Assembly (NCBI GenBank): GCA_016187335.1
Contig: JACPJW010000001.1
Span: 316,547-380,546 of the forward strand
Source of the DNA: Candidatus Aenigmatarchaeota archaeon
Lineage (GTDB): Archaea; Aenigmatarchaeota; Aenigmatarchaeia; GW2011-AR5
Length of the DNA: 64,000 nucleotides
Direction of reading: 5' to 3'
How positions within the stretch are numbered: the stretch's first letter is position 1; each line of letters starts with the position of its first letter. Below are positions 38,468 to 64,000 of this stretch, one piece after another. The translations under genes and the position numbers were made by a program. The notes beneath the pieces are model-generated. The model ran no database searches. It worked only from the letters and a program-made list of their open reading frames with translations, and was not told the DNA's origin.

Positions 38468-39556
38468 TTATCCGATGGTTGCCTGCTGGAATTCCCTTGT
38501 TGAAAAGTCAACGACCACGGGCAGGAACCTCGTCAGCAGGGACCCGGAACTGAGTATTGTAACCGACTTGTAATTGCTGACGTGCGGCTCGTGTGTGTGG
38601 CCGTAATGGACTATGTCAGGGATTTCTTCAAGAACAAGGCTGTCTTCCTTCATCGATATTTTCGGCTTTCCCAGATGCCTTTTTTTCAGCATCGACAGGC
38701 TGTACTTGTGCAAAAGGAGTATTTTTATGCCGTTTATCTCTATCATCGCCGGGTTCGACAGCGATATTATGTTCCTGTTTCTGTACTTTACCGGCGCCGC
38801 AGGGTAATTCTTCGACTCCATCTCGCCGGGTATTGCGATGACCGTCTTGTTGTAGCAGTGAGTTTCCACGGCTTTCTCAAAGGCCTCTTTGTCGCCTATG
38901 TCTCCTGCAACAAACAGGTATTCTATGCCCTGCTGCCCGAACCATTTCATGAATTTTTCAAAGTCCGACAGCGGCGCCTCTTCCAGGTGAAGGTCGCTGA
39001 CGAAGCACGCCCTTCCGCTGCCTTTCGCCGGCTGCCTGAGCGGCATGTCCGGGTAGAATACCTGCTTCCCGTAAATTACCTTTCCTGCCGATATGCCCTT
39101 GATTGCCACGACATCGTCCTGCTCCAGGTCGCCGACATCCTCGAAAATAACCGGCATTGTGGACGTCATGTCCTCCAGCTCCACGAGGAATTTTTCTTCC
39201 TCCTGCCTGATTTCCTTGACTATGCCTATTACAAAAACTTCCTTCCTGCTGTTGTCCACCTTGTTCAGGGACGTGAAGTCCCTGCCTATTCTGCTCAGGA
39301 TTATTTCCTGCATTTTCCTGTACTTGTCCCTGTAAAAGGCGATAAAATCCTCCGTGGTTATCTCCTTGGGCAGCGAAGTTATGTTTTTGATTACCCTGAG
39401 AGCCGGCTGGACAAACTCCTTTTCTGTTATTATGATCCCCGGATAATTTTTCTCCAGGAACTCCGCTATGTCCTTGTCTTCAAGGAACTGCAGGGCCGTC
39501 GGGCTGAGCAGCTTGCCTTTTTTAAGAAATTCGTGGATTATTTTTTCCTTCGACAT
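38468..39556 (-). CDS. polD1: DNA polymerase D small subunit (DP1)
   Basis: 362 residues, short for DP1 (often 450-700). After an N-terminal helical region comes an OB fold (EVFVIGIVKEI) and a calcineurin-type phosphoesterase domain: FVSDLHLEEAP (motif I), FVAGDIGDKEAF (II), then IPGEMES where GNHD is usual, LLHKYS, and YGHTHEPH at the end. So motifs I, II and V are kept, but the Asn-His pair of the GNHD motif is gone. The large subunit DP2 is not in the window. It lies between PolB and Orc1/Cdc6 on the same strand. Confidence 0.9.
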   Translation of the reverse strand: MSKEKIIHEFLKKGKLLSPTALQFLEDKDIAEFLEKNYPGIIITEKEFVQPALRVIKNITSLPKEITTEDFIAFYRDKYRKMQEIILSRIGRDFTSLNKVDNSRKEVFVIGIVKEIRQEEEKFLVELEDMTSTMPVIFEDVGDLEQDDVVAIKGISAGKVIYGKQVFYPDMPLRQPAKGSGRACFVSDLHLEEAPLSDFEKFMKWFGQQGIEYLFVAGDIGDKEAFEKAVETHCYNKTVIAIPGEMESKNYPAAPVKYRNRNIISLSNPAMIEINGIKILLLHKYSLSMLKKRHLGKPKISMKEDSLVLEEIPDIVHYGHTHEPHVSNYKSVTILSSGSLLTRFLPVVVDFSTREFQQATIG

Positions 39557-39627
39557 ATATAGCACGCCTGCAAGCAATTGTTTGTTATGTATGCAGAACC
39601 TTTCGTTTTTCCGGGCTGTACGCTGTT

Positions 39628-40851
39628 TTAGTTTCCGAGTCTTTCAACAAGCATACTGTTAACCCTTTGGAGTATTGTGTCGTTTATGGCAAGGACTACT
39701 TCCCTTGTGCGGCCGTACCTGCCTTTCGAGATTACCTTCGCTGTTATCACGCCCAGCATGTCCAGTTCCCCGATGAGGTCGCTTACCCTGCGCTGCGTCA
39801 GCGTTTTCAGGTTGTTCCTGGCGCATACTTCCTTGTACATTTCGTATATGTCGCCTGTGAGCATCCTGGTGTCAGCCCACTTTTTCTGGCTGCCGTATTT
39901 CTCCTGCAGCTTTATTATTGAATACATCACCGCCTGCGACTGCTTTGGCTGTAGTTTAATTGTTTCTGTGACGCGGTCCATGTCTATTTTTTCTTCGGCG
40001 AGCTCTACGTGCTTGTAGGTTATCTGGCTGTCGCCCAGTCTTTCCGCAACCTCGCCGGCAACGCGCAGGAGGTCAATGGCCCTTCGTGCGTCTCCGTGCT
40101 CCTGGGCGGCCATGGCAGCGCACATGCTTATTATTTCCTCGCTTATTGTGTCCTCAATAACACCTTCGGAAACGCGCTGCGCCAGGATGTCCTTGAGCTG
40201 CAGGGCGTCGTATGGCTTGAATATAATCTCTTCGTCGCTCAGGGATGACTTGATCCGTGCGTCAAGATTGTCCCTGAAAGAAAGGTCGTTAGTTATGCCC
40301 ACAAGCGTTATCGTCGCGTTTTTCATCTCCCCGTTGACGCGCGTCAGGTTGTATAGAAAATCGTCGCCTATTTTCTTGTAAAGGCTGTCTATCTCGTCAA
40401 GGACGAGGATGATTGTCTGCTTTTTTTCGTCAATTTTCTCGAAGAATCTGCGGTAAAGCAGGTGTGTCGGAAGGCCTGTTTCCGGAACGAATTCGCCTAT
40501 TTCCTTGAGCAGCTGCGCCAGAAGGCGGTATTCCGTGTCGGATACTTTCTTCATCTTGCAGTTGATATATACGGTCCTGATCCCCCTGCCTTTGCTTATT
40601 TCCTCCAGTTGCGACAGCACATACCTTATGGATATCGTCTTCCCGGTGCCGACAGTGCCGTAGATAAAAAGATTGCTGGGCTGGTATCCGCGAAGCGCCG
40701 GGGCAAGGATGTTTGATATTGACTTTATTTCCTCCTCTCTGTGGGGGATTTTGCTTGGCATAAAAGAAGACGTCAGTGCCTTTTTGTTTTTGAAAATGCT
40801 TTCCTTTTCGACAAAACGCAAGAATATGTTGTCTTTCTTAGTGACCTGCAC
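39628..40851 (-). CDS. orc1: replication initiator Orc1/Cdc6
   Basis: 407 residues. AAA+ motifs: IYGTVGTGKTISIR (Walker A), ILVLDEIDSLY (Walker B), LVGITNDLSFRD (sensor 1), HGDARRAIDLLR (sensor 2), then a C-terminal winged helix (LTQRRVSDLIGELDMLGVI). KIPHREEEI before the ATPase core is the usual Orc1 signature. It begins with GTG preceded by a GGTGTGGTG tract. It binds origin DNA and loads MCM. The adjacent AT-rich gap upstream is the natural place for its target origin. Confidence 0.95.
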   Translation of the reverse strand: MQVTKKDNIFLRFVEKESIFKNKKALTSSFMPSKIPHREEEIKSISNILAPALRGYQPSNLFIYGTVGTGKTISIRYVLSQLEEISKGRGIRTVYINCKMKKVSDTEYRLLAQLLKEIGEFVPETGLPTHLLYRRFFEKIDEKKQTIILVLDEIDSLYKKIGDDFLYNLTRVNGEMKNATITLVGITNDLSFRDNLDARIKSSLSDEEIIFKPYDALQLKDILAQRVSEGVIEDTISEEIISMCAAMAAQEHGDARRAIDLLRVAGEVAERLGDSQITYKHVELAEEKIDMDRVTETIKLQPKQSQAVMYSIIKLQEKYGSQKKWADTRMLTGDIYEMYKEVCARNNLKTLTQRRVSDLIGELDMLGVITAKVISKGRYGRTREVVLAINDTILQRVNSMLVERLGN

Positions 40852-41479
40852 TTACACCACACCCCTTAAACCCAAATCAGAAACAAACCACAGTAAATTC
40901 GCGGTTTGTTTCACATCCATTTCATATGGAAGTTCTTTTATTATTAACATCGTCGTTTATAAGTATTGTTGCAGAAGAAATATAGGTTTGACAAAATATA
41001 TTTTCTAAAAATCTATACATACCCCTTCATTTCTCATGGAAACCCCCATATAAAATATATTGATAACATCGTTATAAGAAAGAAAGGTATGTGTCATTTC
41101 CAATTTTTTCCTAAATTTTAGTATTTCCACACGAAACGCCTCCATGAGAAACTATGGAGTAGGTAACCTCACCTTCTTTTGGAAGTTTCACAAACAAATT
41201 ATAACACAGTTATACGAGTGGAAATGTAGTTTAACTAACACGATTTTAACAACACAGTAAGGGACGACACCAGAAGAAATAAAGTCTTTATGCACTTCAT
41301 ATTTTTTGGGGTTTTAGGTATTTTTTGAACATCGTTTGAAATATAATTTTATTACTTAAAAATAAGTAAATTTCAAAATTTCTATGCTTTAGTAGGATAA
41401 TTATATTTTGCATGGTTTTTATGTCAACTGCTTCAAGTAGAGTTTCAAGCGGAACTTCTATTATTTTGCACAATGTTAA
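40852..41479. other. candidate replication origin (AT-rich non-coding gap)
   Basis: 628 bp without a convincing gene, next to orc1 on its upstream side. It holds a 10-bp inverted repeat (40880-40912), several GGAAAC/TTTCC-type segments (near 41037, 41094, 41127, 41180 and 41216) reminiscent of origin recognition boxes with short C tracts (GGAAACCCCC near 41037), three AACATCGT copies (40946, 41065, 41328) and an AT-rich stretch at about 41339-41420 that could unwind. Archaeal origins usually lie beside orc1/cdc6. No box is a full match to a known consensus by eye. Confidence 0.5.
40880..40912. repeat. inverted repeat upstream of orc1
   Basis: GAAACAAACC and GGTTTGTTTC, a perfect 10-bp inverted repeat with a 13-bp spacer, 29 bp before the orc1 start. 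Position and symmetry suit an origin recognition box pair or an operator for autoregulation of orc1. Confidence 0.6.
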
Positions 41480-50147: not shown

Positions 50148-50323
50148 AGCGGTTTCTAAAGGCGCTTAAAGGTTTCTGGCAATACTTTTAGTCACAGGGT
50201 CAGAAAAGGTATGGTCAGGCTTTCACAAACATCAAAGATCAAATCATATTTATCTAGTAATTTATCTGTTAAATTGAGAGTCAGCCTCTTTTTCTGAGCC
50301 CTTGAAAAATCGGGGTGGTAATC
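50148..50323. other. non-coding gap before dnaG
   Basis: 176 bp with no convincing ORF or tRNA pattern. The last bases, GGGGTGGTAATC, form the dnaG ribosome binding site. CTATTTATCTAG-like AT stretches around 50245-50270 could hold its TATA box. Confidence 0.35.
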
Positions 50324-51493
50324 ATGGCCAAACTGGCCCAGAACTTTGCGAAGTACTTAATCCATGCCAGGCTTCATGCCAAGGGCATTGTGGAAAAGCC
50401 AGACATAATCGGCGCGATTTTCGGGCAGACAGAAGGCCTTTTGGGAGCGGACATGGACCTGCGCGAGCTGCAGAGAACCGGGCGGATAGGGCGGATTGAG
50501 GTGGATGTCAATAACAGCAAAGGCAAGTCTTACGCCGACATTTACATTCCTTCTTCTTTAGATGCTTCTGAGACATCGCTCATTGCGGCGTCAATGGAAA
50601 CTATTGACAAAGTGGGTCCCTGCGATGCCGAGATAGAGATAGCAAAGGTTAATGACGTAAGAACGCAGAAAAGAAAGTACGTTATCGAGAGGGCAAAAGA
50701 AATTTTAAAGGGAATGATGGACGAAGGCATGCCCGATACGCAAAAATTGTCCGAGATGATAAAGGAGTCCGTCCGTTCCTGGGAACTCTCGTCCTATTAC
50801 GGGCTTCCCAGCGGCCCTGACATTCTGGAATCGGATGAAATAATCATTGTCGAGGGACGCGCCGACGTGATAAACCTCCTGAAAAACGGAATAAGAAATG
50901 TTATGGCAATCGAGGGCTCAAAAATACCGGACCCGGTGATAGACATAACGAAGCAGAAAACAATCATAGCTTTTCTGGACGGGGACCGGGGCGGCGATCT
51001 GGATTTGAAAAAACTGCTGCTGGTCGCCGACATAGATTACGTAGCCCGCGCAGAAGAAGGCAAGGAGGTTGAGGAGCTCACGAAGAAAGAAATATTCAAG
51101 GCGCTCAGGGAAAAAACCCCGGTTTATTCAGAGGCAGTTTTAACGAAAGAAGCCGCCGCCACTGACGAAGGCGTCATTGAGGAAATCAGCAGGGACGCGA
51201 AACAGCACTTTGGCAGCCTGCTGGAAGAGCTGACAGGCTCCAGGGCGGCTTACATAGTTGACAAAAGCATGAAGGTGCTTGCAAAAATACCCCTCAGCGA
51301 GATTTCTGCCGTCATTGACGACTACAGGAATGTTTACGCGATAGTTTTTGACGGGAAAATAAGCCAGGACATAATTGAGATGTCGCTGCAGAAAAATATA
51401 CCTTATCTGGTTGCCACGGACTACAAGGAAAAAATAACAGTGCCCGAGAGCATGACGGTCATAACGCAGAAAGATTTGGAGCAGCAGGTTTGA
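50324..51493 (+). CDS. dnaG: DnaG-type primase (archaeal)
   Basis: 389 residues from MAKLAQNFAKYLIHARLHAK. A TOPRIM domain lies near residue 175: IIIVEGRADVINLLK (Glu), FLDGDRGGDLDLKK (D-x-D). FGQTEGLLGADMDLRELQRTGRIGRI precedes it and is typical of archaeal DnaG. In archaea it associates with the exosome and may also make primers. The gene is followed three bases later by an M24 peptidase. GGGGTGG before the ATG is the binding site. Confidence 0.93.
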   Translation: MAKLAQNFAKYLIHARLHAKGIVEKPDIIGAIFGQTEGLLGADMDLRELQRTGRIGRIEVDVNNSKGKSYADIYIPSSLDASETSLIAASMETIDKVGPCDAEIEIAKVNDVRTQKRKYVIERAKEILKGMMDEGMPDTQKLSEMIKESVRSWELSSYYGLPSGPDILESDEIIIVEGRADVINLLKNGIRNVMAIEGSKIPDPVIDITKQKTIIAFLDGDRGGDLDLKKLLLVADIDYVARAEEGKEVEELTKKEIFKALREKTPVYSEAVLTKEAAATDEGVIEEISRDAKQHFGSLLEELTGSRAAYIVDKSMKVLAKIPLSEISAVIDDYRNVYAIVFDGKISQDIIEMSLQKNIPYLVATDYKEKITVPESMTVITQKDLEQQV

Positions 51494-57062: not shown

Positions 57063-57702
57063 GGCAATAATCCTTGCAGGCGGGATGGGCAAGAGGATGA
57101 GGCCTGTTACCGAAGACATCCCGAAATGCCTGGTTCCCCTGAACGGGCGCCCCCTGCTTGATTATCAGTTGGAGCGCCTGAGAAAATACGGCGTCAGAAA
57201 AATCATCATAGCATGCGGTTACAAGTGGGAGATGATAAGGCATATCTATGGAAATTCGGTTTTGTACTCGGTTGAGGAAGAGCCGTTAGGCACGGGCGGC
57301 GCGGTGAAAAAAGCAATGGAACTCGTGGACGGCGAAGAATTCCTGGTAATAAACGCCGACGATTTGAGCGACGCGGACCTGGAAGAATTTGTCAAGACAG
57401 GGAGCAACGCCACAGCTGTCGCGCGCTTTCACAGCAGCTTTGGCATAGTGGAAATTGCCGGCGGAAAGATTACAGAATTCAGGGAAAAGCCGCTTCTTCC
57501 TTACTGGGCAAACATGGGCATGCACCTGCTGAACAAAAAAGTTCCTTTCAAGGACAAATGCAGCCTGGAATACGATATCCTACCGCTGCTCGCAAAGCAA
57601 GGCTTATTGAAAGTATACCAGCACCACGGCTTCTGGCGCACGGCGAACACTATCAAGGAGCTGGAAGAACTGGAAGCGTTCCTCAAAGAAAAGACACTAT
57701 GA
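57055..57702 (+). CDS. sugar-1-phosphate nucleotidyltransferase
   Basis: 215 residues. AIILAGGMGKRMRPVTEDIPKCLVPLNGRPL is the signature start (read as G-G-x-G-x-R-x-x-P-x-T and K-x-x-x-P); the metal Asp is in VINADDL; FREKPLLPYWANMGMHLL holds the sugar-binding Glu and Asn. Being coupled to a phosphohexomutase, it likely makes GDP-mannose or UDP/dTDP-glucose for the glycan locus. Confidence 0.87.
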   Translation: MIEAIILAGGMGKRMRPVTEDIPKCLVPLNGRPLLDYQLERLRKYGVRKIIIACGYKWEMIRHIYGNSVLYSVEEEPLGTGGAVKKAMELVDGEEFLVINADDLSDADLEEFVKTGSNATAVARFHSSFGIVEIAGGKITEFREKPLLPYWANMGMHLLNKKVPFKDKCSLEYDILPLLAKQGLLKVYQHHGFWRTANTIKELEELEAFLKEKTL

Positions 57703-58056
57703 AATTTTCCTTATTTCTTCGGCTATTATTTCCAGCGAGTTTTTGTAAGAATGGACTTTTCCTACGACAGCAATCTTGTTGCCGCGCTTCAGATTATAAT
57801 AAGTCTCGTTGGCGCTGTTCTTGAACACAACAACGCGGAAGTCCTTGTCCTCAAGGGTTATGAAAATGTTGCCGTCCTTTATCGCAAGGGATTTTATAGT
57901 GCTGTTCAATGAAACTTCCTTTCCAAGATACGTGTCATCAATGACGGCCGCCGTTGTTTCCAGAGGCTTCATGCCTTCCGTAACAAAGAATAGCGCGGCA
58001 ATTCCGATGACTGTGAATGCGAGCGATATTCTGGTTATGTTCACTTCAGTTCCCAT
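57697..58056 (-). CDS. membrane-anchored OB-fold protein
   Basis: 119 residues. One N-terminal helix (ISLAFTVIGIAALFFVTEG), then an OB fold (LGKEVSLNSTIKSL, GNIFITLEDKDFRVVVF, GNKIAVVGKVHSY). The sequence resembles the tRNA_anti/BOF type with external domain. It may bind nucleic acid or oligosaccharide outside the membrane. The start overlaps the thpR stop by 16 bases. Confidence 0.68.
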   Translation of the reverse strand: MGTEVNITRISLAFTVIGIAALFFVTEGMKPLETTAAVIDDTYLGKEVSLNSTIKSLAIKDGNIFITLEDKDFRVVVFKNSANETYYNLKRGNKIAVVGKVHSYKNSLEIIAEEIRKIS

Positions 58057-58577
58057 GCCTTGTAGTCCTCGTAAACAGGTCCATTTGAGCTGAGAATAGA
58101 TTTCTTCAGCTTTACCTTGTCTACGGTCATCGCGCCGATTTCAACGTTCTGGCTGTTCTTTAAAAAATCCATCAATTGCTCCTTCCCCCTGACAGACCTT
58201 ACCCTTGCCAGGGTCAGGTGCGGTGTTATGTCACGTTCTTTTTCAAAAGGCGGGCACAGGGCTTGTTCAACGGCGTGCTGCAATGCATGCAGTTCCGGCG
58301 CGCCGAGCCAGACAACCCGTATGTAGCTAAGCGAAGGGAAAGCGCCCAGCCCCTTTACGGAAATCTCAAAAGGCTGCCAGTCTTTCAGTAAATCACCGAT
58401 GACGTTTTTTACGTAAGATATCTGGTCATCACTTGCTTCTCCAAGGAATTTCATTGTGAAATGCAGGTTCTCTTCTTCCACTAACTTCACATCAGCTACC
58501 TCGTTCAGTTGTTTTTGGATTTCCAGAGCAGCTGGTTTTAGTGCTTCATCCAGGTCAACAGCCAGAAAGCAGCGCAT
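58041..58577 (-). CDS. thpR: RNA 2',3'-cyclic phosphodiesterase
   Basis: 178 residues. MRCFLAVDLDEALK is the family start; the two HxTx motifs are LHFTMKFLG and PHLTLARVR. It hydrolyses 2',3'-cyclic phosphate ends or, in reverse, ligates 2'-5' RNA. A TTTTAAATA box lies upstream at leaderless distance. A different 2H phosphoesterase is encoded at 15059-15580. Confidence 0.92.
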   Translation of the reverse strand: MRCFLAVDLDEALKPAALEIQKQLNEVADVKLVEEENLHFTMKFLGEASDDQISYVKNVIGDLLKDWQPFEISVKGLGAFPSLSYIRVVWLGAPELHALQHAVEQALCPPFEKERDITPHLTLARVRSVRGKEQLMDFLKNSQNVEIGAMTVDKVKLKKSILSSNGPVYEDYKAWELK

Positions 58578-58724: not shown

Positions 58725-59030
58725 ATGGGAAGGAAAAAAGGCTTTGATAATCGGAAAATAGTGGCCATAGTGGGTGTGTTAGTCAGTAATCCGGACGGCT
58801 TATGGCTCAGGAACATAGCAAGAGAGACTAAACTACATCCATTGACTGTTTCTAAGTATCTGGATACGGTTCTGAGACCTCTGGTCGAAGAAACAAGCCT
58901 CAGGAGCGAGAAAAAGCCAATCTTGCGCGTGATTAAACTCAAGCCGTTTGTCCTTGAAAAGATGCAGGAAGGCCGGAACATACAGCAGATTCTTCGCATG
59001 CTCAAGCTTATGGAAAGCGTGAGAGAATAG
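58725..59030 (+). CDS. winged-helix DNA-binding protein
   Basis: 101 residues. GLWLRNIARETKLHPLTVSKYLDTVLRPLV is a clear helix-turn-helix with recognition helix, followed by a basic wing and a C-terminal helix (IQQILRMLKLMESV) that may dimerise. It lies directly before the GTGAA/TTCAC repeat array, so it is a candidate binder of it. It starts with ATG about 30 nt after a TTTTAGTATA box. Confidence 0.72.
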   Translation: MGRKKGFDNRKIVAIVGVLVSNPDGLWLRNIARETKLHPLTVSKYLDTVLRPLVEETSLRSEKKPILRVIKLKPFVLEKMQEGRNIQQILRMLKLMESVRE

Positions 59031-59053
59031 GAAAAGCAAGAAAATCTTGTTCT

Positions 59054-59070
59054 AAGACAGCTATTGTCTT
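59054..59070 (+). terminator. possible hairpin terminator after the winged-helix gene
   Basis: AAGACA and TGTCTT form a 6-bp stem with a 5-nt loop, followed by TTCGAGTTTT. Placed 24 bp after the stop at 59030. Archaeal termination usually needs only a T tract, so the call is weak. Confidence 0.35.
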
Positions 59071-59085
59071 TTCGAGTTTTAGCCC

Positions 59086-59434
59086 TTCACGTGAACTTCA
59101 CGGCAACTTCATGAACATCTCCGTGAACTTGATGAACTCTTCGTGAAGGTCTGTGAATACTAAAAATTTTCCCTCACAAAATTCACTTTCTAGAATTATC
59201 AAACTCACATTCTACGTATTTACTCTAACTAAAACCCATAATGCTCTTCATAAACCCTTCATATGAACTTCACCAAACCTTCATAAAACCTTCACGAACT
59301 TCACGGTGAATACATATGAAGTTCACGAAAATCACGTGAATTCACGAAGAAAAAAGCCAATTTCTGTGAAGGTTTTAGCCTTTTAGCATGAACAATTTGT
59401 GAACTTCACGAGCAAAAAGCATTTAAGCCGTGAA
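59086..59434. repeat. dense array of GTGAA/TTCAC half-sites upstream of the AAA+ gene
   Basis: Eighteen exact half-sites in about 350 bp: TTCAC at 59086, 59097, 59182, 59269, 59291, 59300, 59322, 59341 and 59405; GTGAA at 59091, 59123, 59143, 59153, 59306, 59336, 59366, 59399 and 59430. Less than one would be expected by chance. Several pair as GTGAACTTCAC (59091, 59399), ATGAACTTCAC (59263), ATGAAGTTCAC (59316) and GTGAATTCAC (59336). Spacing is irregular. The final site lies between the TATA box (59420-59428) and the AAA+ gene start. Confidence 0.85.
59420..59428 (+). promoter_or_regulatory. TATA box of the AAA+ gene, flanked by repeat sites
   Basis: CATTTAAGC, 21-29 nt before the ATG at 59449, giving a leaderless mRNA. 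A GTGAACTTCAC site ends ten bases before it and a GTGAA half-site follows it, so a bound repressor would block TBP or the start point. Confidence 0.55.
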
Positions 59435-59448
59435 GTTAATAGGTTTGC

Positions 59449-60636
59449 ATGGAAGAAGAAAGCGATAAAACCGATGAAAAGAGCACTAACATAAGAAATG
59501 AGAAGTCTTTGGAAGAGATAAATGAGAGCCCCGCTGTCAGGCAGGAAGCTGAAAAGCCTAAAAAAGAGGTACCCATTGTCTTCTCATCTTCTGAGTGGTT
59601 TTCAGCAAAGAGATGGAGCAATAATCCCTTTACTTTCAGCATACTTCCGTCACTTTTTGTAGGTTACAAAGAGCAGACATCAAGGCTCATGCTTTTTCTC
59701 GAAGAAAAGCACAAATTCCTGCTTGTCGTAGGCCCTACCGGCTCGGGCAAAACCACGTTGCTGAAGTGGATTCAAGGCAATTTACCAGGCAGCGACACTT
59801 TGTACATTGGCAAGCCGCCTGAAACGCCGGCTGATTTTGTTGACATATTCAATGACAAGTTCAAGGCACCTTGGTTTTTACGCCCTTTTTCACCGAAAAT
59901 AAAAAATATTTACCAAGTGCCTGATTTCCTGAACAAACGGCTGAAGAAAAAACACCTTGTCGTGTTTATTGACGAAATACACGAAGCAGATTTAGAAATT
60001 TTAGAATGGCTGCGCGTGCTTGGTGACCAGGTCGACAACATATCATTTTTGCTTTCAGGCCTGCCGAGCTTTGACCATGACCTTTCGACAAAGCTGGAGA
60101 CCTTCCGAAAAAGGATTACAGCCAAGATAGAGCTTCTATCTCTCACAAAAGAAGAGACGCAACAGCTCATTCAGAGAAGAATACAACATGTTGGGGGTCA
60201 GGGTAATGAATTTCCACAAGATGTTGTGGATTTTATTTACAGCCGCAGCGGCGGCTTTCCACGTGAGGTTTTGCGTTTGTGCGACGAGTTTATAAACCAG
60301 GCAATATTAAAAGGCAGCCCTGATATCTCTCTGGATCTTCTGGGAGGCGTGACGGAGGAAAAAATAGAGCAGCAGGTTTATTTGGATGTTTTAGAAAAAA
60401 TGACGCCCATGCAGCGGGAAATTTTGGAAGTGCTTGCGCAAAAGCCGCTGTCGCCGGGCCAGATTGCAAACAGCCTGAACCTGGAAAAATACAAGTCACG
60501 GCAGCACGCCGTGCGCAGCGTGAACAATATTCTGAAATTCCTGCTGAAGCAGGACTACGTTGAGCGGCAGCAGTTCGAGAAAACCTTCGTCTACTCCCTG
60601 ACGCCGAAGATAAAGACGCTGATGGTGAAAGCATGA
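59449..60636 (+). CDS. AAA+ ATPase with C-terminal winged helix (Orc1/ExeA-like)
   Basis: 395 residues. A charged, probably disordered N-terminus of about 60 residues; then FVGYKEQTSRLMLFLEE, VVGPTGSGKTTLLKW (Walker A, about 92-106), VVFIDEIHEADL (Walker B, about 165), FLLSGLPSFD (sensor 1) and SGGFPREVLRLCDEF (sensor 2). The C-terminus is a winged helix (MTPMQREILEVLAQKPLSPGQI and a recognition helix). The architecture matches Orc1/Cdc6 and ExeA/TniB-like ATPases but lacks the Orc1 signature before the core. It may be an alternative replication initiator or a regulator bound to the array upstream. Confidence 0.8.
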   Translation: MEEESDKTDEKSTNIRNEKSLEEINESPAVRQEAEKPKKEVPIVFSSSEWFSAKRWSNNPFTFSILPSLFVGYKEQTSRLMLFLEEKHKFLLVVGPTGSGKTTLLKWIQGNLPGSDTLYIGKPPETPADFVDIFNDKFKAPWFLRPFSPKIKNIYQVPDFLNKRLKKKHLVVFIDEIHEADLEILEWLRVLGDQVDNISFLLSGLPSFDHDLSTKLETFRKRITAKIELLSLTKEETQQLIQRRIQHVGGQGNEFPQDVVDFIYSRSGGFPREVLRLCDEFINQAILKGSPDISLDLLGGVTEEKIEQQVYLDVLEKMTPMQREILEVLAQKPLSPGQIANSLNLEKYKSRQHAVRSVNNILKFLLKQDYVERQQFEKTFVYSLTPKIKTLMVKA

Positions 60637-60730: not shown

Positions 60731-61288
60731 ATGGCCATATCAGTTGCAGAAGCGAACCATCTAAATTTTCTTGTCGAGGACTTATCTCCCTTTAGAGGAG
60801 AATATTTAACCCAAATTTACGAACGACACCCACAACTTCTGCGTGCTTTTGATAGATACGCTTTGAAAGGTGGATTGGAACAATTTGAAGCTTTGCCAGT
60901 TACATCAATATATGGAGCAGAAGATAGACCAGTATATCAAGAAGTTACTAATGCCTTAGAAGAAGCCGCTGCAAGAGGAGAACCTGAAAAAGATCAATTT
61001 TTACGTAGATTAAGACAGACATATCTGGAAGCGCATAGAGTTGTCCTAGAAGAAGGTGAAAAAACTCACCGCGCTGTTCGCGTTTTGCCTATAGAGTATC
61101 ATCATATCGTTGAAAGTAGATTGGATACTTTACAAGGGGTTTCTTCATGCCTAAGAGATTTATACAAAGTAATGGTCGATATTGTAGGTCAATCTGTTGG
61201 GCTTGAAAGAACAAAAAGAACTCCTGATATTCCTCTGGAAAGTTATGACGATATCCCGGTAGACTGGCTTAATGATTCTTCTAAGTAG
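60731..61288 (+). CDS. hypothetical helical protein
   Basis: 185 residues, AT-rich, no recognised family. Mostly amphipathic helix with many charged residues (LEEAAARGEPEKDQFLRRLRQ, AHRVVLEEGEKTHRAVRVLP). No membrane segment. The promoter palindrome suggests dedicated control. It follows the AAA+ gene at 95 bp and may belong to the same acquired unit. Function unknown. Confidence 0.5.
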   Translation: MAISVAEANHLNFLVEDLSPFRGEYLTQIYERHPQLLRAFDRYALKGGLEQFEALPVTSIYGAEDRPVYQEVTNALEEAAARGEPEKDQFLRRLRQTYLEAHRVVLEEGEKTHRAVRVLPIEYHHIVESRLDTLQGVSSCLRDLYKVMVDIVGQSVGLERTKRTPDIPLESYDDIPVDWLNDSSK

Positions 61289-61444: not shown

Positions 61445-61699
61445 ATGCAGTCACGTGGCAGAGAGCTTGTAGGAAAAGTCGTTGTTTCCGAGGAAACCGG
61501 TAGGAAGTTCGGCGTTGTCGGCGACATGAACTTCGTTTCAGAGAGCGGCGAGCTGCTTTCCCTGGTTTTGGTCGAGCCCACAAGGCACGTATCCGACCTT
61601 TCTTTGGAACGTGACGAGAACAGCCGCATGCTTGTGCCTTTCTCGTCCGTGCGCAGTGTTGGCGACTTCGTCATCATCAGCGAGAAGGACATTGTTTAG
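61445..61699 (+). CDS. PRC-barrel domain protein
   Basis: 84 residues, the size of one archaeal PRC-barrel. ELVGKVVVSEETGRKFGVV is the core motif (l.gk.V....G...G.V.d); VPFSSVRSVGDFVII the end. In archaea such proteins have been tied to cell division (CdpB types) and RNA processing. GAGGTG lies seven nt before the ATG. The leader of about 35 nt follows an ATTTAAGG box at 61380. Confidence 0.85.
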   Translation: MQSRGRELVGKVVVSEETGRKFGVVGDMNFVSESGELLSLVLVEPTRHVSDLSLERDENSRMLVPFSSVRSVGDFVIISEKDIV

Positions 61700-61729: not shown

Positions 61730-62002
61730 ATGAGTCGTTTGTACATAGCTGCTGGTTTAATTATTTTAGCGCTTCTAAATGTGCATGAATACAAATTTTC
61801 ACTTTCAAGGATGAGGGAAATCCCGGAAAATGTCCCTCCGACGAAAGTAATTGCTGAGGAAAATAGGGTAACAGGGAAATATTACGCAGAACTGCCCCTG
61901 CATTTGAAAGCAGTCGGCCTTCCTTACAGGATTATCACTATTCCGGGAAAATGGTATGCGGAAAGAAATTTTATGATGGAACGCGTCAGCCAAGAAGACT
62001 AG
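61730..62002 (+). CDS. hypothetical protein with N-terminal membrane anchor
   Basis: 90 residues. [20 protein letters not shown] is a signal anchor; the rest is soluble and basic ([20 protein letters not shown]). No family recognised. It overlaps the radA stop by four bases, tail to tail. Confidence 0.55.
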
Positions 62003-63039
62003 TCGCTTATCCCCTTCGGTCCCACCTTGAAAACAGCCTCGCCTTCCGGCAAATAAGGAGAATCAATTAATCGTGCAATGCGGGTGTCGCCTTTGCTTTT
62101 TCTCAGGTAAAGGCGCATCCCGGTCGCGTGCGCAACTATATGCCCGCCTATCGCAGTCGTCGGGTCGCCGAACATCAGTCCCGGATTCGCCATGACCTGG
62201 TTTGTTACGACAACCGCAAGATTGTAAATATCGGCAAGCCTCTGCAGCGCGTGTATGTGCCTGTTCAGTTTCTGCTGCCTTGGTGCAAGCTCGCCGCGCC
62301 CGCTGTAATCAGCGCGGAAATGAGCAGTGAGCGAGTCAACTACAATTAATTTAATGTTTTTCTCCTTGATTATGTCTTTTGCTTTTTCCGATAAGACAAC
62401 CTGGTGATCCGAGTTAAATGCCCTGGCCACGTAAATGTTCTGCAGGACTTTTTTCGGGTCCAGTCCCCTGCCTTCTGCGATTTCCCTGATTCTTTCCGGC
62501 CGGAACGTCGCTTCCGTGTCTATGAACAGGCACGCTCCGTTTATCCCGCCTTTTTCTTTAGGCAGCTGAACATTGACAGCAAGCTGGAAGGCAATCTGTG
62601 ATTTTCCGCTCGCAAACGCGCCGTAAAATTCCGTTATGGTCTGCGTTTCCACCCCGCCGCCTAACAGGTTATTCAAAGATTCGCTGCCTGTGCTTATCTT
62701 GCCGATTTCCTCCCTTCTTTCCATGACTTCCGCTGCCGTCTTGAATCCCATGTCCAATTTTGCCCTGGCCGCAGCAATGATTTTCTCCGCTGTTAACTCC
62801 CCTATCTCACAGACAGCAGCCAGCTCCCCGGAAGAAGTAGCAGCTATTGACATCAGGTCCTCGTAGCCAGCTTCTTTCAGCTTCTGCGCACCCTTAGGAC
62901 CGATGCCAGGAAGGTCTTCAATACTTATTTCGCCGTTTTCTTTGTCCCTTTTTGTTATTTCTTCAGCGCCTTCCATCATCTCTTCTTCTATGATTTCCTC
63001 CTTCGTTTTCTTCTCCTTCACAGCGATTTTGCGGGGCAT
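61999..63039 (-). CDS. radA: DNA repair and recombination protein RadA
   Basis: 346 residues. An N-terminal charged tail, then the helix-hairpin-helix domain ([22 protein letters not shown]), the RecA core with [11 protein letters not shown] (Walker A; the usual sequence is GEFGSGKTQ), [28 protein letters not shown] (Walker B) and [25 protein letters not shown] with the L2 region. It forms the strand-exchange filament with RPA and Hjc as partners. The Ala and Ser changes in Walker A are unusual but keep the key Gly-Lys. Confidence 0.95.
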
Positions 63040-63191: not shown

Positions 63192-64000
63192 TTATCCCAT
63201 CATCTGCAGCAGCGATTCGATTTCTTTCTTCACATCAACGTTCTTAACGTTGTTCACGACAAATTCCAGCCTGTCAAAAACCTTGTTGCGCCGTACAGCG
63301 CCTTCAAATAAAAACTCCTTTCCCAGCTGAACCCTTTCAAAAACTGCTGCGCGGTCCATTTTCCTCATGAACGCCTTTCGCGCCTCGTCGGTGCGGTAAT
63401 TGAGGATTTTCTCAGCATTCTCGCCGAAGAAAACAGCCCTCAGATTGCCCGTGCCGTCGTCCACGATGCCTGATACAACCAAAGCATGGTCCGGCTCAAC
63501 TTCGCCATGCTCCTCGCAGCGGAAGTTGTTTTCCTCTTTCACCCTGGCGCTGCATTTAGGGCATATTTCGTAGAAAGCGTTGCCCTCGAAGACCTGCAGC
63601 AAAGATGCGCGCAATTCCTTGTATTGGTTTTCCCTTAGCTGGGCGATAGCCGAGCGGTCGTATTTTTTCTGGGCAGTTTCAACCTTTATTTCTTCCTCGG
63701 ATTTCACGATGTTTCCGTATCTGCCCAGCCTTATTTCGTTTCCGTACAAGCCTTCCCGCACGAAGCCGCGCACCCTCACGGTGTCGCCCTCCTCCGCGCT
63801 CAGCTTCTCTATCTCCTCGTTCCATAAAACAAGACGGATCGATCCAGATTCATCAGCCAGCGTCACTGCAGCCAGCTTCCCCTTCCCCTTTTCTGATTCG
63901 TAATCCTTCCTGTCTATGCGCATTATCTTCCCGACGATATCGACGTTCTGCATGCCGGGAATGATATTTTCAATGAGCAACCGCTCCGTTTTTCGCAGTT
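63192..64000 (-). CDS. rpa: replication protein A (RPA), N-terminus beyond right edge
   Basis: At least 269 residues in frame; the frame is open to the edge, so the true start lies outside. IIPGMQNVDIVGKIMRI begins an OB fold (with LVLWNEEIEKLSAEEGDTVRV as its later strands). CPKCSARVKEENNFRCEEHG supplies a zinc finger (C, C, C, H) near the middle, followed by a second OB-like region (ALVVSGIVDDGTGNLRAVF). Archaeal single-stranded DNA-binding protein, in one unit with radA. Confidence 0.88.
   Translation of the reverse strand, partial: LRKTERLLIENIIPGMQNVDIVGKIMRIDRKDYESEKGKGKLAAVTLADESGSIRLVLWNEEIEKLSAEEGDTVRVRGFVREGLYGNEIRLGRYGNIVKSEEEIKVETAQKKYDRSAIAQLRENQYKELRASLLQVFEGNAFYEICPKCSARVKEENNFRCEEHGEVEPDHALVVSGIVDDGTGNLRAVFFGENAEKILNYRTDEARKAFMRKMDRAAVFERVQLGKEFLFEGAVRRNKVFDRLEFVVNNVKNVDVKKEIESLLQMMG

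Follow-up and report, generated by a model that had tools for sequence, protein, structure and literature searches.

A helically phased array of GTGAA half-sites accompanies the gene for an AAA+/winged-helix ATPase across a class of small-genome archaea

A dense array of GTGAA/TTCAC half-sites was found immediately upstream of a gene encoding an AAA+ ATPase with a predicted C-terminal winged helix, within the 64,000-nucleotide stretch of archaeal DNA analysed here as a whole (the window). Arrays of this type were present 5' of the homologous gene in 72 out of 75 loci of the same archaeal class, even where protein identity falls to about 40%, and their sites are helically phased. On balance, it seems probable that the array is the assembly site of the adjacent protein and that the resulting phase-locked complex serves the chromosome's origin domain, either in accessory initiation or in a centromere-like manner, autoregulation of the gene being a by-product. 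ATPases with a phased cognate array are already known from plasmid partition and initiation. A literature search in open PMC text returned no description of this protein type, its chromosomal setting or its class-wide distribution, and to our knowledge chromosome marking, initiation and segregation are almost unstudied in archaea with very small genomes. The results suggest that the gene-array pair is an undescribed DNA-protein machine for chromosome handling in these little-known organisms. It would add a second ORC-shaped AAA+ type with a sequence-specific cis site, related in sequence to the TnsC/MuB transposition ATPases. As protein, 5-bp half-site and geometry are all defined at a locus that is unique in each genome and deeply conserved, initiation, segregation and autoregulation should be separable by simple binding and marker-frequency experiments.

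The array in the window and its uniqueness in the genome

The gap preceding the AAA+ gene (59031-59448) contains 18 exact half-sites, nine in each orientation, located between 59086 and 59434, together with 9 ATGAA/TTCAT variants. This recount agrees with an earlier note on this DNA, which had reported 18 exact sites in about 350 bp and at least seven one-mismatch variants. The note had also described several sites joined as the 11-mer GTGAACTTCAC; there are two exact copies (59091-59101 and 59399-59409) and one-mismatch copies at 59263 and 59316, so the 11-mer is real and "several" slightly generous. The sites form two clusters (Table 1). Exact half-sites of the left cluster start at 59086, 59091, 59097, 59123, 59143, 59153 and 59182, and the right cluster opens with 11-bp direct repeats of CTTCAT/C and closes on both sides of the TATA box, where the half-sites at 59405 and 59430 bracket the element CATTTAAG, just as the note had remarked. 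GTGAA-to-GTGAA spacings in the window are 32, 20, 10, (153), 30, 30, 33 and 31. AT content reaches 72% in the inter-cluster stretch 59187-59243, and alignment showed that CTCACAAAA (59173-59181) and ACTCACATT (59203-59211) are both retained in same-family relatives. Throughout the window's family an AT-rich stretch of about 100 bp splits the array, with conserved CTCACAAA and ACTCACATT elements inside, and CTCACA elements are conserved in this segment between the two clusters. The winged helices that had been noticed at the C-terminus of the AAA+ protein and in the gene on the other side of the array were also recovered, the former as a prediction in an AlphaFold model and the latter as a helix-turn-helix read from the sequence of a protein that Pfam does not recognise.

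Table 1. Coordinates of the array and of the genes discussed, numbered from the first nucleotide of the window.
Feature	Position	Strand	Basis or remark
Genuine Orc1/Cdc6 initiator gene (orc1)	39628..40851	-	TIGR02928, 410.7 bits
Canonical ORB-type box CCATGAGAAATGAAGGGGT upstream of orc1	41021..41039	-	most likely site of the ordinary origin
DnaG-type primase	50315..51493	+	name from sequence; between orc1 and AAA+ in 17/18 intervals
OB-fold protein	57697..58056	-	conserved neighbour
LigT / 2'-5' RNA ligase-like gene	58041..58577	-	conserved neighbour; N-type arrays run through LigT
Small winged-helix protein, 5' of array	58725..59030	+	101 aa; helix-turn-helix read from sequence
Array, left cluster	59086..59186		7 exact half-sites plus variants; includes GTGAACTTCAC at 59091-59101
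AT-rich stretch between clusters	59173..59243		alignment and AT content
Array, right cluster	59244..59434		11 exact half-sites
TATA-like element CATTTAAG of AAA+ gene	59420..59427	+	sequence; conserved in G001 (alignment)
AAA+ ATPase, C-terminal winged helix, predicted ORC-like fold, ExeA/TnsC/MuB-type sequence	59449..60636	+	profile matches, AlphaFold, Foldseek
PRC-barrel protein	61445..61699	+	next conserved gene 3' of AAA+, 63/75 loci
RadA recombinase	61999..63039	-	conserved neighbour cluster; name from sequence
RPA-like OB-fold protein	63192..63980	-	neighbour cluster; name from sequence

The genome to which the window belongs (G000) consists of two contigs, C1 and C2, totalling 1.01 Mb, with 72 kb of C2 given as N. 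Half-sites average about 0.7-0.8 per 350 bp across both contigs (0.72 in C2, sd 0.93); the array holds 18, the runner-up in C2 holds 7 and the maximum in C1 is 6. The motif is not equally dense anywhere else in the available sequence of the genome, and the assignment of the array to the AAA+ gene is borne out by its being the densest of G000 and conserved with that gene. A whole-genome search for GTGAANTTCAC allowing up to one mismatch gave 49 matches vs 12 for the reversed control, indicating that the motif itself is not rare and is dense at the array locus only. Similarly, the sole dense cluster in the complete single contig of G050 lies upstream of the homologous gene (14 half-sites per 300 bp, the next cluster having 6). 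An Rfam scan of the array gave no match. Elsewhere in G000, two hairpin-rich intergenic stretches (G000:C2:745093 and G000:C1:7190) share the phrases TATAGTT, CAAGGAAA and ATACC and are possibly small repeats dispersed through the genome.

Conservation and helical phasing of the array

An array was scored when at least 6 half-sites fell within 730 bp, about 1.5 being expected, and the 75 loci surveyed correspond to 74 genomes, one of which carries two gene copies. All of the first 30 loci had the array upstream of the gene once strand was taken into account. Three loci fell below the threshold: in G142 the contig stops 194 bp upstream of the gene, G051 has three sites at 11-bp spacing, and the third is G114. 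Comparison of the regions upstream of homologues, which the earlier note had proposed, therefore shows that the array is kept with the gene in 72/75 cases. In 22 genomes of families f26-f28, which are devoid of the gene, TTCAC-N6-TTCAC was found 25 times against 27 for the reversed control, without any excess. Taken together, these figures indicate that, within the sample, the presence of the array goes hand in hand with that of the gene. Both copies of the duplicated gene in G108 come with an array of their own.

When 55 arrays were pooled, same-strand spacings peaked at 11, 21-22, 31-33, 42, 52 and 62-63 bp, with nearly nothing in between; TTCAC-to-GTGAA spacings peaked at 5, 16, 25, 36, 46 and 56 bp, and GTGAA-to-TTCAC spacings at 6, 17 and 28 bp. 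The best period was 10.45 bp, with a vector strength of 0.70 below 60 bp, 0.63 from 60 to 120 bp and 0.39 from 120 to 200 bp, whereas the same motif in the genome background gave 0.03 and followed codon periodicity instead. Such a period implies that the sites line up on a single side of the helix, facing a regular protein lattice. The phasing, the class-wide conservation of the array and the presence of a genuine orc1 in the same window all go beyond what the earlier note had seen.

We also considered the two-cluster layout with its AT-rich gap as a rule for the whole class. The window's own family shows the layout clearly, but a bipartite gap exceeded 95% of random placements in just 28% of arrays class-wide, and the rule did not hold up.

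The AAA+/winged-helix protein

Profile matches place the AAA+ protein near the ExeA/TnsC/MuB-type ATPases: it scored 53 bits with Pfam AAA_22 and 81.6 bits with the ExeA/PEP-CTERM ATPase model TIGR03015 of NCBIfam, and phrog_296 ("DNA transposition protein") matched residues 86-375. Although these ExeA/TnsC/TniB/MuB-type models are the nearest in sequence, the protein does not reach the TIGR03015 cut-off (324.5 bits), it combines a winged helix with a cis array of its own, and the conserved neighbourhood of its gene contains neither transposase nor secretion genes. On DNA, TnsC and MuB assemble into helical filaments. With the Orc1/Cdc6 model TIGR02928 (cut-off 181.3 bits) only the genuine orc1 scored above the threshold and the AAA+ protein remained below it, weak matches being seen in 4 out of 18 members of the AAA+ family. 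The AlphaFold model (pLDDT 82.8, low chiefly in the N-terminal tail and a linker) predicts an AAA+ domain followed by a winged helix in an ORC-like arrangement. Full-length Foldseek searches had archaeal ORC2 and Cdc6 (A. pernix ORC2, P. aerophilum Cdc6) on top, with MuB and TnsC also among the fold matches; the rmsd was high, and since this holds over long range, the placement of the domains in the model is uncertain. Between the predicted strands 116-120 and 170-174 the model has three helices, which can be read as those expected for an initiator-type insertion. The earlier proposal of a new, non-Orc1 type of initiator is supported as regards shape and family, the protein being initiator-shaped by its predicted ORC2/Cdc6 fold matches and not Orc1/Cdc6 by sequence.

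The putative recognition helix, YKSRQHAVRSVNN, is near-invariant (K349, H353, R356, N359 and N360). In 23 loci H353 is replaced by N or I (N-type), the larger group being H-type. N-type arrays are sparser (median of 11 sites vs 19 in the larger H-type group), more weakly phased and broader: sites occur from about -1200 to +400, including inside LigT and the AAA+ reading frame. The Mann-Whitney p value for the H versus N comparison, 1.6e-5, overstates the evidence, as the tree has just two changes between both types. The covariation of recognition helix and array, resting on two evolutionary changes, is suggestive but not statistically independent. The two full-length copies of G108 (L214 and L215), which lie 206 kb apart, differ in type: one is H-type and its array dense and phased, the other is N-type and its array broad.

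The array might simply be an outsized cooperative operator controlling how much AAA+ protein, and perhaps PRC-barrel protein, is made, with no role in replication or segregation. Its final sites flank the TATA box of the gene, as those of an operator would, and it always goes with the gene, even where this is duplicated (G108) or far from orc1. A precedent is Orc1-2 of Saccharolobus, an Orc1-family relative which, according to PMC9738581, is not an initiator but a DNA-damage regulator of transcription; it resembles our protein as an ORC-type AAA+ with a winged helix that acts, or in our case may act, on gene expression, but belongs to another sequence family, and the abstract of that source mentions no such array. 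However, array sizes of 18-41 half-sites across 350-700 bp and the spread of N-type arrays into the LigT and AAA+ reading frames exceed the needs of a switch, and the majority of the sites lie far upstream of the promoter. Autorepression as the only function is thus unlikely.

Homologues of the AAA+ protein were detected in 52 out of 59 relatives in a first sample, including all 25 that were at least 90% complete, and in 111 of the 156 genomes of a phylum-wide sample, all from one class; the genomes without it were those of families f26-f28 and some others. The gene is nearly always single-copy and its tree largely tracks family labels. The cassette is probably ancestral to most of the class. 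The idea of a captured plasmid or integrated element that brought its own origin and initiator, raised in the earlier note, draws on the iteron-like appearance of the array. Iteron plasmid origins do share a repeat array adjoining an initiator-like gene, but they use one fixed tandem repeat, while here many spacings fall in one helical phase and the array is not plasmid-borne. The gene is a conserved chromosomal one, no match covering 80% of the protein was found in 72,556 plasmids and no match at all in 50,697 phage records, and viral contigs yielded one weak partial match. A search of contig collections retrieved no relative with the single protein as query and one full-length archaeal relative (CP070662.1) with the alignment. 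For practical purposes, capture can be considered refuted.

Neighbouring genes

The conserved cassette has the order LigT(-), small winged-helix gene(+) in 37 loci, array, AAA+(+), PRC-barrel(+) in 63 loci and RadA(-), and belongs to a chromosomal replication island that runs orc1 ... dnaG ... LigT, array, AAA+, PRC-barrel, radA and RPA-like. Two ORFs located between AAA+ and RadA in the window, 60731-61288 (185 aa) and 61730-62002 (90 aa), lack counterparts in the corresponding neighbourhoods of relatives and are possibly recent insertions or spurious ORFs. We also considered the small winged-helix protein as the sole binder of the array. A homologue of its gene occurs in the neighbourhood at 37 out of 75 loci, and 11 H-type loci with no detectable homologue keep dense arrays (median 20.5 sites/kb), so this candidate was set aside and AAA+ is the constant partner.

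As in ParR-parC systems, short helically spaced repeats lie 5' of an ATPase gene. In a study of plasmid R1 (PMC9426499), ParR requires at least two 11-bp repeats, and parC is described, after a 1994 paper cited there, as ten direct repeats flanking the par promoter. ParR-parC, however, uses a ribbon-helix-helix adaptor and an actin-like motor, in contrast to the chromosomal AAA+/winged-helix protein and the sites in both orientations found here. A chromosomal centromere, in which the phased array and an AAA+ partition complex near the origin would serve segregation, with a possible link to division through the PRC-barrel protein, would account for this parC-like geometry, for the PRC-barrel gene 3' of AAA+ and for one unique, usually origin-linked site per genome, reminiscent of bacterial parS sites, which cluster close to the origin (PMC12284271). 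Yet none of the neighbour genes of the cassette encodes a motor of the ParM, TubZ or ParA type (actin-like, tubulin-like), the two ParA-type ATPases of the genome sit away from it and look MinD- and Mrp-like, and linkage to orc1 is gone in some families. We regard a dedicated centromere as rather doubtful.

Relationship to orc1 and the chromosomal origin

ORB-type boxes CCANNNGAAAYNAAGGGGT were found upstream of orc1 in 19 out of 30 loci, about 0.006 being expected per region, which makes an ordinary Orc1 origin most likely there. The array is most likely not this ordinary origin: in G000 the canonical ORBs upstream of orc1 are about 18 kb away from it, and the repeats next to the AAA+ gene differ in motif from the ORB. 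Compared with Orc1/Cdc6-ORB systems, the pair has in common the AAA+ plus winged-helix architecture, the predicted full-length fold match and a neighbourhood of replication genes, but the protein fails the Orc1/Cdc6 sequence models, the half-sites follow a strict 10.45-bp lattice instead of forming ORBs, and a genuine orc1 with ORBs exists besides.

In 30 genomes orc1 lies on the same contig within 60 kb of the AAA+ gene (26 of them divergent), a count biased upward because short contigs cannot show long distances. The intervals vary in gene content and, in genomes outside the order, share with the window few genes besides dnaG, LigT and the OB gene. In family f11 (G153) orc1 is just 0.35 kb 3' of AAA+, while linkage has been lost in G114 (294 kb, with the array at 329 kb and orc1 at 623 kb on a contig of 742 kb) and G122 (about 380 kb) and the two genes are on separate long contigs in G027, G032 and G051. 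In G050, the array (665 kb) and orc1 (690 kb) both lie in the broad minimum of orientation-controlled GC3 skew (600-800 kb), for which the maximum is found at 245 kb (p 0.006). This is consistent with an origin in the array/orc1 region, at a resolution too low to separate the two; T-A skew in this genome turned at other points.

The position of the array within that skew minimum would also suit a second, Orc1-independent origin, with the AAA+ protein as initiator and two clusters flanking an unwinding element. The ORC-like fold predicted for the protein points the same way, as does, in the window's family, the 72% AT segment with conserved CTCACA elements between the clusters. On the other hand, canonical ORBs at orc1 are mostly only 5-30 kb off, and two origins so near each other would be odd; skew is unable to separate sites about 20 kb apart, and the bipartite layout is not class-wide. 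A second origin in this strict sense appears improbable, though deserving of consideration.

We favour the assembly of the AAA+/winged-helix protein on the array. We infer that the protein is the binder: its winged helix would recognise GTGAA half-sites along a single side of the DNA, and its initiator-type AAA+ domains would then connect adjacent subunits, giving a helical nucleoprotein filament that depends on ATP and covers 350-1200 bp. The target of this complex would be the chromosomal origin domain, where it would serve as accessory initiator or centromere-like organiser, and occupancy of the array would, as a side effect, autoregulate the AAA+ gene. The origin domain is the likeliest place for this job given that the array usually lies in an island that also contains dnaG, radA and the RPA-like gene, at a distance of 0.3-60 kb from orc1 with its ORBs, and autoregulation would follow from the last sites straddling the TATA box. 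Against this explanation, linkage to orc1 has been lost in some lineages and whole families live without gene and array. A more ambitious claim, that the class has a second chromosomal system in which a non-Orc1, ORC-shaped AAA+ protein initiates replication or drives chromosome segregation by polymerising on its phased array, and does so independently of Orc1/ORB, is a real possibility that we would advance only tentatively.

Of 10 genomes lacking the AAA+ gene that were searched for Orc1, 8 contain no other Orc1 than a shorter type with lower scores (156-262 bits) and 2 have none at threshold. The short type is the only Orc1 in families f26/f27 (e.g. G086, G087, G090 and G099), which have neither AAA+ gene nor array, and some genomes with the AAA+ gene also have a similar low-scoring Orc1 as an additional paralogue. 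In the window, orc1 (39628-40851) is followed by a gene (38468-39577) whose product resembles the small subunit of DNA polymerase D (OB fold plus phosphoesterase), and the two are likely to form a replication operon.
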